The translations under genes were made by a program, and so were the position numbers. A DNA stretch of 49,994 bases, taken from positions 1-49,994 of the forward strand of contig JAJPJL010000008.1 of NCBI GenBank assembly GCA_021324255.1, read 5' to 3'. Shown here piece after piece: positions 5,233 through 8,562 of this stretch. Position 1 is the first letter of the stretch. Every line of letters begins with the position of its first letter. The notes beneath the pieces are model-generated. The model saw nothing but the letters and a program-made list of their open reading frames with translations. It made no database searches and was not told the origin of the DNA. The stretch comes from Bacillota bacterium. Its GTDB lineage: Bacteria > Sysuimicrobiota > Sysuimicrobiia > Sysuimicrobiales > Segetimicrobiaceae.

Positions 5233-5661
5233 TCATGCCTGGACAGCGGGCACGAGAGCGGGACGGACAATGTCGGCGAGCGTCGTGCGGTTGAGGACTT
5301 CCTCGGTTGCGGCTTTGACCGCCTGCCAGACCGGGCGCAGGCCGCAACCCGGGGCGTAGATGCAGTGCGCGTCCTGCTCCTCCACGCAGAGCCACGGAGC
5401 AACGCTACCTTCGAGGACGAGAAACGCTTCTCCGACCGTGATGCGTTCCGGGGGGCGCGCGAGGACGTGGCCGCCGCTGGGGCCGCGCTTGCTCTGGACG
5501 AGCCCGGCGCGTCGAAGCGTGGTCATGAGCTGGTTCAAGTACGGTTCGGGCAACCCTTGCCGGCGTGCGATCTCGTGGCTCTGTACGGGCCCCTCACCGT
5601 AGTGCTGCGCCAGATCGATCAGGGCCCGGATGCCGTACTCCGCCCGCGAGCTGACCTTCAT
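5233..5661 (-). CDS. Rrf2 family transcriptional regulator (IscR/CymR-like)
   Basis: The 142-residue protein begins MKVSSRAEYGIRALIDLA, the standard Rrf2 winged helix, with the recognition region around SHEIARRQGLPEPYLNQLM and the wing LVQSKRGPSGGHVLARP. Three cysteines in LCVEEQDAHCIYAPGC (about residues 92-107) match the spacing of the Fe-S ligands of IscR/NsrR-type members. CymR, in the same family, lacks a cluster and controls cysteine metabolism. The start overlaps the stop of the JAMM peptidase gene (ATGA), so it is co-translated with the cysteine genes and is a good candidate for their regulator. Confidence 0.92.
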   Translation of the reverse strand: MKVSSRAEYGIRALIDLAQHYGEGPVQSHEIARRQGLPEPYLNQLMTTLRRAGLVQSKRGPSGGHVLARPPERITVGEAFLVLEGSVAPWLCVEEQDAHCIYAPGCGLRPVWQAVKAATEEVLNRTTLADIVRPALVPAVQA

Positions 5662-6131
5662 GTCACCACCACATCCTCTTCCGTGACGTCGCGGATGGGC
5701 TGCCGGTGCTCGTCCACGGCGACGGTCCCATTGCCGTCCATGCGGTCGGTGATCCGAAACGCACGGACGTCCGCGTGCGTGGGGTCGGCCAGCGAAATAA
5801 TCACATAGCGGGGGGTTTGCCAGAGCGCGAGCGCGCGGTCTGTAGCGCTAGGCAGCGCCGGTGTTGCGGGATGCGAGTGGTAAATGCCCACAATCTCCCA
5901 CCCCCGCTCGCGCTCCAACCGCAGCGCAGTCAACTGCGCCTCGTCGTCGACATGATAGTGGCGCCGGGGATCGCGGGGCTGAGGCAGCTCGCCGGCCTTG
6001 TTCCGGGCCCGCAACACCTCAATGACAATATCGCCGGTCCCCAGCAGCAGACCGCAGCACTCGTTTGGAGCTTCTTCCCGCGCCTGCGCGATCATCTGAT
6101 CGAGCTGTGTCCGCGTTAGGTGCAGCGCCAC
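5658..6131 (-). CDS. mec: JAMM/MPN metallopeptidase (M67), Mec-like CysO-cysteine hydrolase
   Basis: The full JAMM zinc motif is present: Glu24 in NECCGLLLG, then H85-S-H87 and S95, D98 in HSHPATPALPSATD. In Mycobacterium the homologue Mec releases cysteine from the CysO-Cys adduct. With cysO-, serK- and cysM-like genes directly upstream the same role is likely here. I chose the GTG at 6131 because a GGAAGGGATGGGG ribosome site precedes it, the MPN fold begins at once, and a -10 TACAAT at 6157-6162 lies just upstream; the ATG at 6158 would overlap that promoter. The gene also could mature the tailed CysO-like protein. Confidence 0.88.
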   Translation of the reverse strand: MALHLTRTQLDQMIAQAREEAPNECCGLLLGTGDIVIEVLRARNKAGELPQPRDPRRHYHVDDEAQLTALRLERERGWEIVGIYHSHPATPALPSATDRALALWQTPRYVIISLADPTHADVRAFRITDRMDGNGTVAVDEHRQPIRDVTEEDVVVT

Positions 6132-6156
6132 GCGTCCCCATCCCTTCCGTAGCGTC

Positions 6157-6162
6157 ATTGTA
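6157..6162 (-). promoter_or_regulatory. Internal -10 element before the JAMM peptidase gene
   Basis: TACAAT on the minus strand lies 25 bases before the GTG at 6131; a weak TTTCCC sits 17 bases further up as a possible -35. It would give mec, rrf2, the anti-sigma-like gene and ppx a promoter of their own. Confidence 0.4.
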
Positions 6163-6260
6163 CCTGAATCGGCCGCGGCGGGAAAGCCCGGCCGCGTGCC
6201 CCGTGCGCGGCGGCGCACGCCCGCGGGGACGGGGAACGGGGGGATGGAGCCCGCGCCGCG

Positions 6261-7214
6261 CTACGCGGTCATGTCGCGCCACAAGGGCGTGCTCAGGTAC
6301 CGGTCGCCGCCGTCCGGCGCGATCACGACGATGACGCCCCGGGCCAAGGCGCGCGCCACACGGAGCGCCCCCACCACCGCCGCGCCGGCCGATTCGCCGA
6401 CGAACAGCCCTTCGTCTCGCGCCAGCCGGCGCGCCAAGGCGTATCCGTCTTCGGTCGACACGGAGATCTTGCGGTCTTGGACTCCGGGATCGTAGATGCC
6501 CGGCACGATGGAGCTGGCGATGTGCTTGAGGCCCTCGAGACCGTGCAACGGCGCATCGGGTTCGACGGCGACGACCCGGATACTGGGATCCGCCTCGTGG
6601 AGCCGCCGCCCCGCGCCGACGAGGGTTCCGGTCGTCCCCAGGCCGGCCACGAAATGCGTGACACGGCCCCCCGTCTGCTCGAGGATCTCGGGGCCGGTGG
6701 TATCGTAGTGCGCCCGCCAATTCGAGGGGTTGTTGTATTGATCGGGCTTGAAATACCGGCCGGGGTCGGCGGCGTAAATCTCTCGCGCCAAGAGGATGGC
6801 GCCGTCGCTGCCTTCCAGCGGATCAGACAACGTGATCTTGGCACCGTACGCGGCGATGATCCGGCGGCGTTCCTGGCTCGCGCTCGCCGGCATCACGAGC
6901 TCGACCGGATAGCCTCTCAGCGCGCCGATCATCGCGTAGGCGATGCCGGCGTTTCCCGACGTCGAGTCGAGGATCGTTGTCCCGGGCCGCAGGCGTCCGT
7001 CTCGCTCCGCGTCCGTGAGCATGCGCAGCACCGGCCGATCCTTGACCGAGCCGCCCGGATTGAGCCACTCCGCCTTGAGGTAGACCTCCACCGCAGAAGG
7101 GAGCTCGCGCGTCACCCGCTGCAGGCGCACGAGCGGCGTGCCCCCGATCCGAGCCAGGAGCGACTCGTCGGCGCCGCGGGTCGGGGGCGACGCCGGGCGG
7201 TCGCCGCTACTCAT
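6261..7214 (-). CDS. cysM: Cysteine synthase, CysM type (probably O-phosphoserine/CysO dependent)
   Basis: This is a fold-type II PLP enzyme of 317 residues. Lys58 in LNPGGSVKDR binds PLP; TSGNAG contacts the substrate carboxylate; HFVAGLGTTGTLVG binds the PLP phosphate. The region YDPGVQDRKISVS aligns with the part of mycobacterial CysM that carries the phosphate-recognising Arg (my alignment puts Lys there, with Arg next to it). Mycobacterial CysM joins O-phosphoserine with the thiocarboxylate of CysO. The neighbouring serK-, cysO- and mec-like genes make that reaction more likely than O-acetylserine plus sulfide. It overlaps the serK-like stop by 8 bases. The exact substrate needs assay. 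Confidence 0.92.
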   Translation of the reverse strand: MSSGDRPASPPTRGADESLLARIGGTPLVRLQRVTRELPSAVEVYLKAEWLNPGGSVKDRPVLRMLTDAERDGRLRPGTTILDSTSGNAGIAYAMIGALRGYPVELVMPASASQERRRIIAAYGAKITLSDPLEGSDGAILLAREIYAADPGRYFKPDQYNNPSNWRAHYDTTGPEILEQTGGRVTHFVAGLGTTGTLVGAGRRLHEADPSIRVVAVEPDAPLHGLEGLKHIASSIVPGIYDPGVQDRKISVSTEDGYALARRLARDEGLFVGESAGAAVVGALRVARALARGVIVVIAPDGGDRYLSTPLWRDMTA

Positions 7215-8052
7215 CGAACAGAAACGTCGATTCCTCGTAGTAGCGGACGCCGTGGGACAGCCGGCGCCGCTGGATCATCGCATCGAGCTCCGCCTGCGTG
7301 CGGGCCGGGTCCGATGCCGCACCGAGCCAGTCCAGCGGGACATTGATCCGCAGCGCTCGCCCGGGCACGAGATGGCGCGTGATCCCGGCCGGGAGACGGC
7401 CGGCGCCGAGCGCCAAGCGGACAATGTCCTCCTTCGCGAAGCGGGGAAAGGCGACGAGCGTGCCGCGCCCGTATTCGGCGTCGAGCGCATCCGGCGTGCC
7501 CCCCTCCACGCGATGCACGCCGTCAGCGCCGCGATAGCGCGCGACGAGCTCCGAGACCGGCCCCGCGGCATCCGCCCCGCCCCGCTCGCCGATCAGCGTC
7601 ACGCCCTCCGCGTCCGCGAGGAACGCGGCTGCGCGGCTGGCGGCGAGCACCGCTTCGGCGTCGGCGATCGCAGAGCGGGCCAGCGCCCTGGCCCCGTGCA
7701 GCCGTGCCGCGTGCCGCCGCAGCCCGCCGCCATCGTGCACGTGGTGGCGCCACGTGGATAGCCGGATGTCCGGGCGCGCATAGTCCACCACCTGGACCAC
7801 GGCATACCGGATCCCCAGTTGAGCCAGGGCGGTCACGCGGTTCGCCCCGTCCAGCACCACCGCCCGCCCGTCCGGCGCCGGGGTCACGATGGGCGGGTTG
7901 CGCAGCACGCCGTCGCGCGTCAAGGCGTCGCACAGACGGCCGACGCGCCCCGGCTCGGGATCCTCGTGCAATAGCAGGTTGCCGGTTGGCATGATCCGCA
8001 GGACCGGGGCGGTATGGAGCGCGCGAGGCGGCTCGCGGAGCGATACATCCAT
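7207..8052 (-). CDS. ParB/Srx-fold protein, probable free-serine kinase (SerK/SbnI-like)
   Basis: The first 110 residues carry the ParB/sulfiredoxin fold in the form used by SerK: LLLHEDPEPGRV (Glu30 with this start, the place of the catalytic Glu described in archaeal SerK), DGVLRNPPIV, and the nucleotide/phosphate loop VVLDGANRVTALAQLG, followed by VQVVDYARPDI. SerK of Thermococcus and SbnI of Staphylococcus phosphorylate free L-serine to O-phosphoserine. There is no DNA-binding HTH as in true ParB. The C-terminal 170 residues are less familiar. It sits between the cysO-like and cysM genes and overlaps cysM. Start: the ATG at 8052 is preferred; an ATG at 8097 would overlap cysO by 38 bases. 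The kinase role is inferred. Confidence 0.75.
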   Translation of the reverse strand: MDVSLREPPRALHTAPVLRIMPTGNLLLHEDPEPGRVGRLCDALTRDGVLRNPPIVTPAPDGRAVVLDGANRVTALAQLGIRYAVVQVVDYARPDIRLSTWRHHVHDGGGLRRHAARLHGARALARSAIADAEAVLAASRAAAFLADAEGVTLIGERGGADAAGPVSELVARYRGADGVHRVEGGTPDALDAEYGRGTLVAFPRFAKEDIVRLALGAGRLPAGITRHLVPGRALRINVPLDWLGAASDPARTQAELDAMIQRRRLSHGVRYYEESTFLFDE

Positions 8053-8059
8053 GAGCGGG

Positions 8060-8389
8060 TCAGCCGAGCGCGCGCCGGATCGACGGGACGGACCCATGCG
8101 CCGCGGCGCGCGCCTCCCCGCCTCCGGCCATCGCCGGGACGATGGAGATTTCGTCGTCCTCGCGAAGCGGCGTGGACGGCCCTTGCAGCGCTCGAATCTC
8201 GGTCCCGTTCACGAAGATATTAATGAAGCTTCGCATCTCTCCCGACGCCTCACGAAGCTGCTCGCGCAGGCCCGGGTACTCCCGCTCCATCGCGGCGAGC
8301 GCCTCGTCCACGGTCCGTCCCTCGGCCGCCACCCGGGTCCGGCCATGTGCCAGCCGGCGAAGCGGCGTCGGCAGATAGACTTGCGCCAT
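8060..8389 (-). CDS. ThiS/MoaD/CysO-family sulfur carrier with a C-terminal tail
   Basis: A ubiquitin-like sulfur carrier of 109 residues: VYLPTPLRRLAHGRTRV, TVDEALAAMEREYPGL, INIFVNGTEIRALQG, and EISIVPAMAGG. Family members end at the Gly-Gly, whose last carboxylate becomes the thiocarboxylate. Here Gly89-Gly90 is followed by 19 more residues (GEARAAAHGSVPSIRRALG). The tail must be cut off before use, or arose by loss of a stop; the JAMM peptidase in the same operon is the obvious candidate for cutting. ATG 8389 is chosen with GGGGAGG about 11 bases upstream; the GTG at 8401 is too close to it. First structural gene of the cysteine operon. Confidence 0.88.
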   Translation of the reverse strand: MAQVYLPTPLRRLAHGRTRVAAEGRTVDEALAAMEREYPGLREQLREASGEMRSFINIFVNGTEIRALQGPSTPLREDDEISIVPAMAGGGEARAAAHGSVPSIRRALG

Positions 8390-8413: not shown

Positions 8414-8446
8414 CAGCAGCCGCGGGTACGGGCGCCGCGGCTGCTG
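8414..8446 (-). promoter_or_regulatory. Leader hairpin just before the cysO-like gene
   Basis: A perfect 12-base inverted repeat (CAGCAGCCGCGG and its complement) with a 9-base loop ends six bases before the ribosome site of cysO. No U-tract follows. It lies between the Cys-containing leader ORF and the first gene, where an attenuation or translation-control structure would be expected. Confidence 0.55.
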
Positions 8447-8484
8447 TGATCATGCGTGAATGCACGGGCACGACGCCCATCACA

Positions 8485-8553
8485 CTATTCCCGGCGACAC
8501 ACCCCCGCCGGGCTGTGGGCGCTCGTACAGATGCAGACGACTACCGTGTTCAT
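8485..8553 (-). CDS. Putative 22-residue leader peptide with three Cys codons
   Basis: On the minus strand an ATG at 8553 opens a 22-codon frame ending at TAG (8485-8487). Cysteines fall at positions 7, 9 and 19 (VVVCICTSAH is residues 4-13). It begins 9 bases after a TATAAT -10, so the message would start at or next to the ATG with no ribosome site. Leaderless cysteine-rich upstream ORFs act as cysteine attenuators in mycobacteria. The position ahead of a cysteine operon and of a hairpin supports the same idea here. The Cys codons are not consecutive, which weakens the case. Confidence 0.5.
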   Translation of the reverse strand: MNTVVVCICTSAHSPAGVCRRE

Positions 8554-8562
8554 GGCCATTTC

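Follow-up and report, generated by a model that had tools for sequence, protein, structure and literature searches.

A predicted cysteine biosynthesis operon with its own SerK/SbnI-like serine kinase and a ubiquitin-like sulfur carrier in Sysuimicrobiota

Introduction

The locus described here raises the question of how cysteine is made in a bacterial phylum nearly without the serine acetyltransferase CysE, and of whether a relative of the serine kinases SerK and SbnI could supply the O-phosphoserine (OPS) for it. It lies on the minus strand of a 49,994-nucleotide stretch (the window) of contig JAJPJL010000008.1, from a member of the Sysuimicrobiota, and encodes a ThiS/MoaD-type carrier, a SerK/SbnI-like protein, a CysM-type pyridoxal phosphate (PLP) cysteine synthase, a JAMM/Mec-type metallopeptidase, and an Rrf2/CymR-like regulator. 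The original prediction, made from the window alone, was of a cysteine operon containing a SerK-like serine kinase. Because homology, synteny, the near-absence of CysE, gene fusions, and a leader with cysteine codons all agree with this reading and lend it inferential support, we consider it likely that the locus is a cysteine biosynthesis operon with its own serine kinase and carrier-borne sulfur, each reaction being deduced from sequence. A broader proposal has, in our view, about an even chance of being correct: that a ParB-fold kinase and a ubiquitin-like-protein-dependent synthase replace the acetylserine route throughout the phylum, with a carrier precursor cut by the JAMM peptidase and, in one family, leader attenuation.

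In the proposed route, the SerK/SbnI-like protein would phosphorylate free L-serine to OPS, with ATP or ADP as the presumed donor. CysM would then exchange the phosphate of OPS for sulfur that the ubiquitin-like carrier bears as a thiocarboxylate at its C-terminus. From the resulting adduct of carrier and cysteine the JAMM peptidase would free cysteine; the same peptidase may also trim the carrier to its GG end. Expression would be linked to cysteine through the leader and its hairpins, which are confined to the window's family, and perhaps also through the Rrf2 protein.

Results and Discussion

The four open reading frames (ORFs) of the original prediction are all present on the minus strand, close to where it had placed them. 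The carrier gene (8060..8389; ThiS, E=6e-15) is followed after a gap of 7 nt by the SerK/SbnI-like gene for a predicted free serine kinase (7207..8052; E30, D68, N71, R72), which stands, as had been described, between the carrier and CysM genes and overlaps the latter by 8 nt. The CysM gene (6261..7214; PALP, 1e-70) encodes a predicted OPS sulfhydrylase, and the JAMM gene (~5658..6158; Prok-JAB, 2.5e-25; E, HSHP, and S-x-x-D motifs) has an uncertain start, its ORF being open from 6218. An Rrf2/CymR-like gene (5233..5661; three invariant cysteines) is coupled to the JAMM gene by an ATGA-type overlap, indicative of translational coupling. Since the SerK-like and CysM genes overlap by 8 nt and the JAMM/Rrf2 overlap is of the ATGA type, the five genes read as a single operon. 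The four genes first proposed therefore stand, and the extent then given was too small, as the Rrf2 gene (5661-5233) and a leader region (~8553-8410) also belong.

A search of genomes for the four-gene set, as the original prediction had advised, finds it conserved across the phylum. The SerK-like gene occurs in 39 of 43 genomes, and carrier, SerK-like, CysM, and JAMM genes stand together at 32 of 40 loci: 17 have the layout carrier-SerK-CysM-JAMM-Rrf2, 13 have an additional enzyme of the CBS-domain type between carrier and SerK, and 2 have the four genes without an Rrf2 match. Loci outside these layouts are mostly broken by contig ends, genus g11 excepted. Rrf2 adjoins JAMM at nearly all loci. 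The same order recurs throughout the phylum at 40-84% protein identity, which excludes chance adjacency, and the protein distances of the different operon members are correlated (0.58-0.76), as expected for genes travelling together. SerK, CysM, and carrier are all absent together from one genome that is 97% complete (G005), and in another (G042, 89% complete) neither SerK nor a close CysM is found, the carrier being represented by no more than a partial, carrier-like match. In the window, genes for a small zf-HC2 protein and a Ppx/GppA phosphatase follow the operon (5052-3878), as they do in many relatives.

When these genes are placed in their metabolic setting, a phosphoserine route gains in plausibility. 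CysE (TIGR01172) scores above its cut-off in only one of the 43 genomes (G004), the matches below cut-off being partial, low-scoring, and of the hexapeptide-repeat kind, compared with 8 of 14 control genomes above cut-off. This near-absence fits a phosphoserine route in place of the acetylserine route. Sysuimicrobiota, formerly CSP1-3, have a published reductive glycine pathway (PMC11604079), which would yield serine from glycine and could thus make a serine-to-OPS step useful. There is also a precedent in Thermococcus, where SerK makes OPS for cysteine (PMC5120207).

A single sequence of the SerK-like protein searched against the PDB matches SbnI (5uje, 4e-16) and SerK (5x0b, 3e-5), and a 37-sequence profile matches SbnI at 2.4e-29 (5uje, residues 2-240 of 266) and archaeal SerK at 2.8e-12 (5x0b, 5-228), with nothing further of note; the homology thus covers both domains over nearly the full length. 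Invariant residues among 39 sequences include H29, E30, D68, G69, N71, R72, W101, H103, R181, and K207. E30 (39/39) aligns with SerK E30 and SbnI E20, a glutamate that we take to be catalytic, and D68 aligns with SerK D69 and SbnI D58. Both NCBIfam serine kinase models (SbnI and archaeal SerK) match every member. No Pfam family was found at E up to 0.1, and that search gave no ParB family, helix-turn-helix (HTH), or dimerisation domain of the kind that marks a chromosome-partitioning ParB. No relatives were found among viral contigs, and a scan of one genome collection for the kinase gene returned only the sister genome Centralia_MAG_233. Structure prediction from two sequences reached a pLDDT of 34, too low for fold comparison.

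The neighbouring enzymes are consistent with cysteine as the product. The best curated model for CysM is cysM, at 376 bits and slightly below its cut-off of 394. At the position of Mycobacterium tuberculosis CysM R220, located through 3dwi numbering, all 34 CysM sequences carry a basic residue, which is lysine (GLKHI) except for arginine in L067. For the JAMM protein there are matches to Prok-JAB and to the solved structure of JAMM1; the catalytic residues E, HxH (H-S-H), and S-x-x-D do not vary among 35-36 sequences. CysM and JAMM are fused into a single protein at three loci of one genus (L061, L069, and L022; genus g16). The Rrf2 protein has its three cysteines in the arrangement C-x7-C-x5-C and is nearest, among named curated models, to CymR (106 bits, below cut-off); it could possibly be an Fe-S sensor.

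This evidence also bears on whether the operon might make something other than cysteine, such as diaminopropionate or a different beta-substituted alanine, in the manner of SbnI-SbnA for staphyloferrin B. Such a product would be in keeping with the company of SbnI-like genes elsewhere, where they are part of a siderophore cluster or, in a plasmid cluster, have a cysteine-synthase-family gene as neighbour. However, the CysM protein scores only 198 bits against the SbnA model, compared with 376 for cysM, the partners here are a carrier and a JAMM peptidase preceded by a Cys-codon leader, and the operon is found phylum-wide with no siderophore genes seen among its neighbours. We give this explanation very little credence. 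The plasmid cluster, from Macrococcus (L145, 5995-10700), holds the SbnI-like gene together with cysteine-synthase-family, 4-hydroxyphenylacetate 3-hydroxylase-like, and pyrimidine genes.

Several observations weigh against a dedicated serine kinase feeding CysM. The DGxHR motif is DGANR in 39/39 SerK-like proteins, so that aspartate and arginine are kept and the histidine (SerK H72, SbnI H61) is replaced by asparagine, and the NCBIfam equivalog cut-offs lie far above the scores obtained (63 against 350 bits for SbnI, 37 against 380 for SerK). An archaeal SerK-like protein is reported to bind CTP and not ATP (PMC12704722). In the window's genome SerA adjoins a class V aminotransferase, so OPS could be made without the kinase, and CysK scores above cut-off elsewhere in the same genome. 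The basic residue of CysM is not decisive for OPS use, as arginine also occupies this position in the O-acetylserine enzyme CysM of E. coli, and in genus g11 the SerK-JAMM-Rrf2 genes stand without an adjoining CysM. Because both NCBIfam models match far below cut-off and the motif histidine is asparagine throughout, we classify the protein as a relative forming a new subgroup of the SerK/SbnI family, and not as a certified SbnI or archaeal SerK. The SerK/SbnI motif originally reported is retained in part, without the histidine of DGxHR.

SerA scores above cut-off in 26 of the 43 genomes, and OPS probably has a second possible source: it could be formed from 3-phosphoglycerate through SerA and the aminotransferase, from serine through the kinase, or by both, as in Thermococcus (PMC5120207). 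The original claim that the kinase makes OPS from serine keeps its inferential support, although OPS may not come from the kinase alone. If SerA and the aminotransferase supplied all of the OPS, the SerK-like protein might instead be a regulator or sensor, or a nucleotide-binding switch of the ParB fold. The encoded SerA/aminotransferase pair, the histidine-to-asparagine change, and the CTP binding just mentioned could be understood in this way, as could the family name of SbnI, a bifunctional regulator and OPS synthase. Against it, the catalytic glutamate and aspartate and many second-domain residues are invariant in all 39 sequences, the Pfam search found no HTH or DNA-binding domain, and the operon already contains an Rrf2 regulator. 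A purely regulatory role is, in our estimate, unlikely.

A further possibility is that the protein is a kinase working mainly in reverse or on another substrate, drawing down OPS or acting on another hydroxy amino acid and so tuning the OPS pool for CysM. The altered histidine and the supply of OPS through SerA are compatible with this, and Thermococcus SerK is known also to channel serine into 3-phosphoglycerate (PMC5120207). The place of the gene between carrier and CysM, its 8-nt overlap with CysM, and the near-absence of CysE speak for the forward direction, and we regard this explanation as still less probable than a regulator. A kinase that forms OPS from serine for CysM remains the reading that we prefer.

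Features of the carrier suggest how such a sulfur donor could be matured. The protein scores 64 bits with the SAMP1 model, above cut-off, and M. tuberculosis CysO (3dwg_C, 1e-12) is among the closest relatives of known structure. In the window it continues beyond AMAGG with a C-terminal tail of ~19 residues; the motif is kept in nearly all carriers, with unconserved tails of 0 to ~25 residues; most have at least a few such residues, and only L049 and L053 end exactly at GG. At five loci (L058, L061, L069, L071, and L075) the carrier is fused in frame at GG to the PLP enzyme of the CBS-domain type, with two CBS domains in the one member tested. As the conserved GG bears variable tails or a fused enzyme beside an intact JAMM gene, these observations suggest that the JAMM peptidase probably cuts after GG and matures the carrier before thiocarboxylation. 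Ubiquitin precursors and the QbsE/QbsD pair are parallels for such processing, and the tails and fusions at a conserved GG may offer a simple prokaryotic counterpart, in which a JAMM peptidase acts, of the way ubiquitin precursors are processed. Charging of the carrier probably falls to a MoeB/MoeZ-like E1 with a rhodanese domain, which is encoded elsewhere and unlinked to the operon. The genome G000 also holds a second carrier-like gene directly downstream of a threonine synthase-like gene (C88:199-1525; L043, L137).

Independent indication that the product is cysteine comes from the leader. On the minus strand ahead of the carrier gene, a short ORF (MNTVVVCICTSAHSPAGVCRRE, then stop; 8485..8553) contains the codons for CIC at 8535-8527, with a further in-frame ATG at 8559. 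The leader could be compared in the window's family (f1) for 11 of 12 genomes, the twelfth having a contig break there. The frame from CIC (CICT...) to the stop is open at all 11 loci, with lengths that differ by a single codon; TGYATCTGTAC is invariant, CIC is unchanged at the amino acid level, and an ATG nearby is evident in 10 of the 11. The leader pattern matches once per genome of the family, always ahead of this operon, and gave no match in a reversed control or in the other families of the phylum.

Conserved pairing accompanies the leader. Hairpin P1 (CCCGGCGG...TCGCCGGG; 8490..8512, minus strand) overlaps the 3' end of the leader ORF and has standard pairs in 88/88 cells, with two positions changed on both sides (G-C/A-U and G-U/G-C/A-U); since MAFFT misplaced the one-codon gap, the arms were anchored by hand and a script then counted the pairs. 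Downstream, a GC-rich hairpin (AGCCGCGG CGCCCGTAC CCGCGGCT; 8417..8441, minus strand) precedes the carrier gene, its stem core invariant in 11/11. A GGGCG element (8473..8477, minus strand) is able to pair with CGCCC (8433-8429) in the loop of this attenuator-like hairpin; the pairing is kept in 11/11, in L049 through a compensatory change (GAGCG with CGCUU). T-rich tracts follow the GC-rich hairpin in several relatives and are not convincing in the window. Pairing of the leader codons with GGGCG, sought by eye, was not consistent across all relatives, and Rfam gave no known riboswitch, T-box, or other family at the locus. Because the single-sequence fold of the window's leader is unremarkable for its composition (z -1.3) and an automatic promoter/terminator scan of this region returned no match, the case is a comparative one: leader and hairpins look like a cysteine-dependent attenuator, whose mechanism and direction of control are putative.

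Relation to known systems can now be considered. The operon resembles CysO-CysM-Mec of M. tuberculosis in that a ubiquitin-like carrier, a CysM-type OPS enzyme, and a JAMM peptidase are encoded together, with a MoeZ-like E1 and rhodanese protein elsewhere. It differs in its added serine kinase and Rrf2 genes, in a carrier that is tailed or fused to a CBS-type enzyme, and in a CysM that stops shortly after an LSTPLW motif, whereas the M. tuberculosis enzyme has a longer C-terminus. The original prediction knew this system from actinobacteria, but operons that combine a carrier, a JAB peptidase, and a cysteine synthase had been catalogued in 2006 well beyond that group, among them in Proteobacteria, Acidobacteria, and Chloroflexus (Iyer 2006, rows 4c and 4d; PMC1779556). 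Those operons share the neighbourhood found here; ParB is unmentioned there, and those of row 4c include an E1.

With the ADP-dependent free serine kinase SerK of Thermococcus kodakarensis, the protein shares full-length homology, the E30/D69 equivalents, and a serine-to-OPS-to-cysteine logic; unlike it, the protein is bacterial, has DGANR in place of DGHHR, and shares its operon with CysM and a sulfur carrier protein. No clear-cut bacterial SerK homologues were reported by Makino 2016. Staphylococcus SbnI is the closest solved relative (5uje, 6nr6) and likewise partners a PLP enzyme that uses OPS, but it serves diaminopropionate and siderophore (staphyloferrin B) synthesis rather than cysteine and keeps the motif histidine. 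Mycobacteria have cysteine-responsive polycysteine leader ORFs (Canestrari 2020, cited in PMC9094748). They similarly are short Cys-containing ORFs ahead of an operon; the peptide (C-I-C-T...), hairpins, and phylum are different here, and the cysteine response is putative.

Conclusions

Carrier-JAB-cysteine synthase neighbourhoods and SerK/SbnI serine kinases are each already known. In a literature search outside which most subscription journals lay, we found no paper that links such a carrier system to a serine kinase and, in agreement with the original prediction, no described operon with all four genes. New here are the conserved Cys-codon leader ORF with its hairpins, the carrier tails and CBS-type fusions, and the CysM-JAMM fusions in one genus. 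If the proposed route is correct, this would be, within the literature searched, the first free serine kinase in one operon with a cysteine synthase that uses a protein-bound sulfur carrier, and it would explain how cysteine is made in a phylum nearly without CysE.

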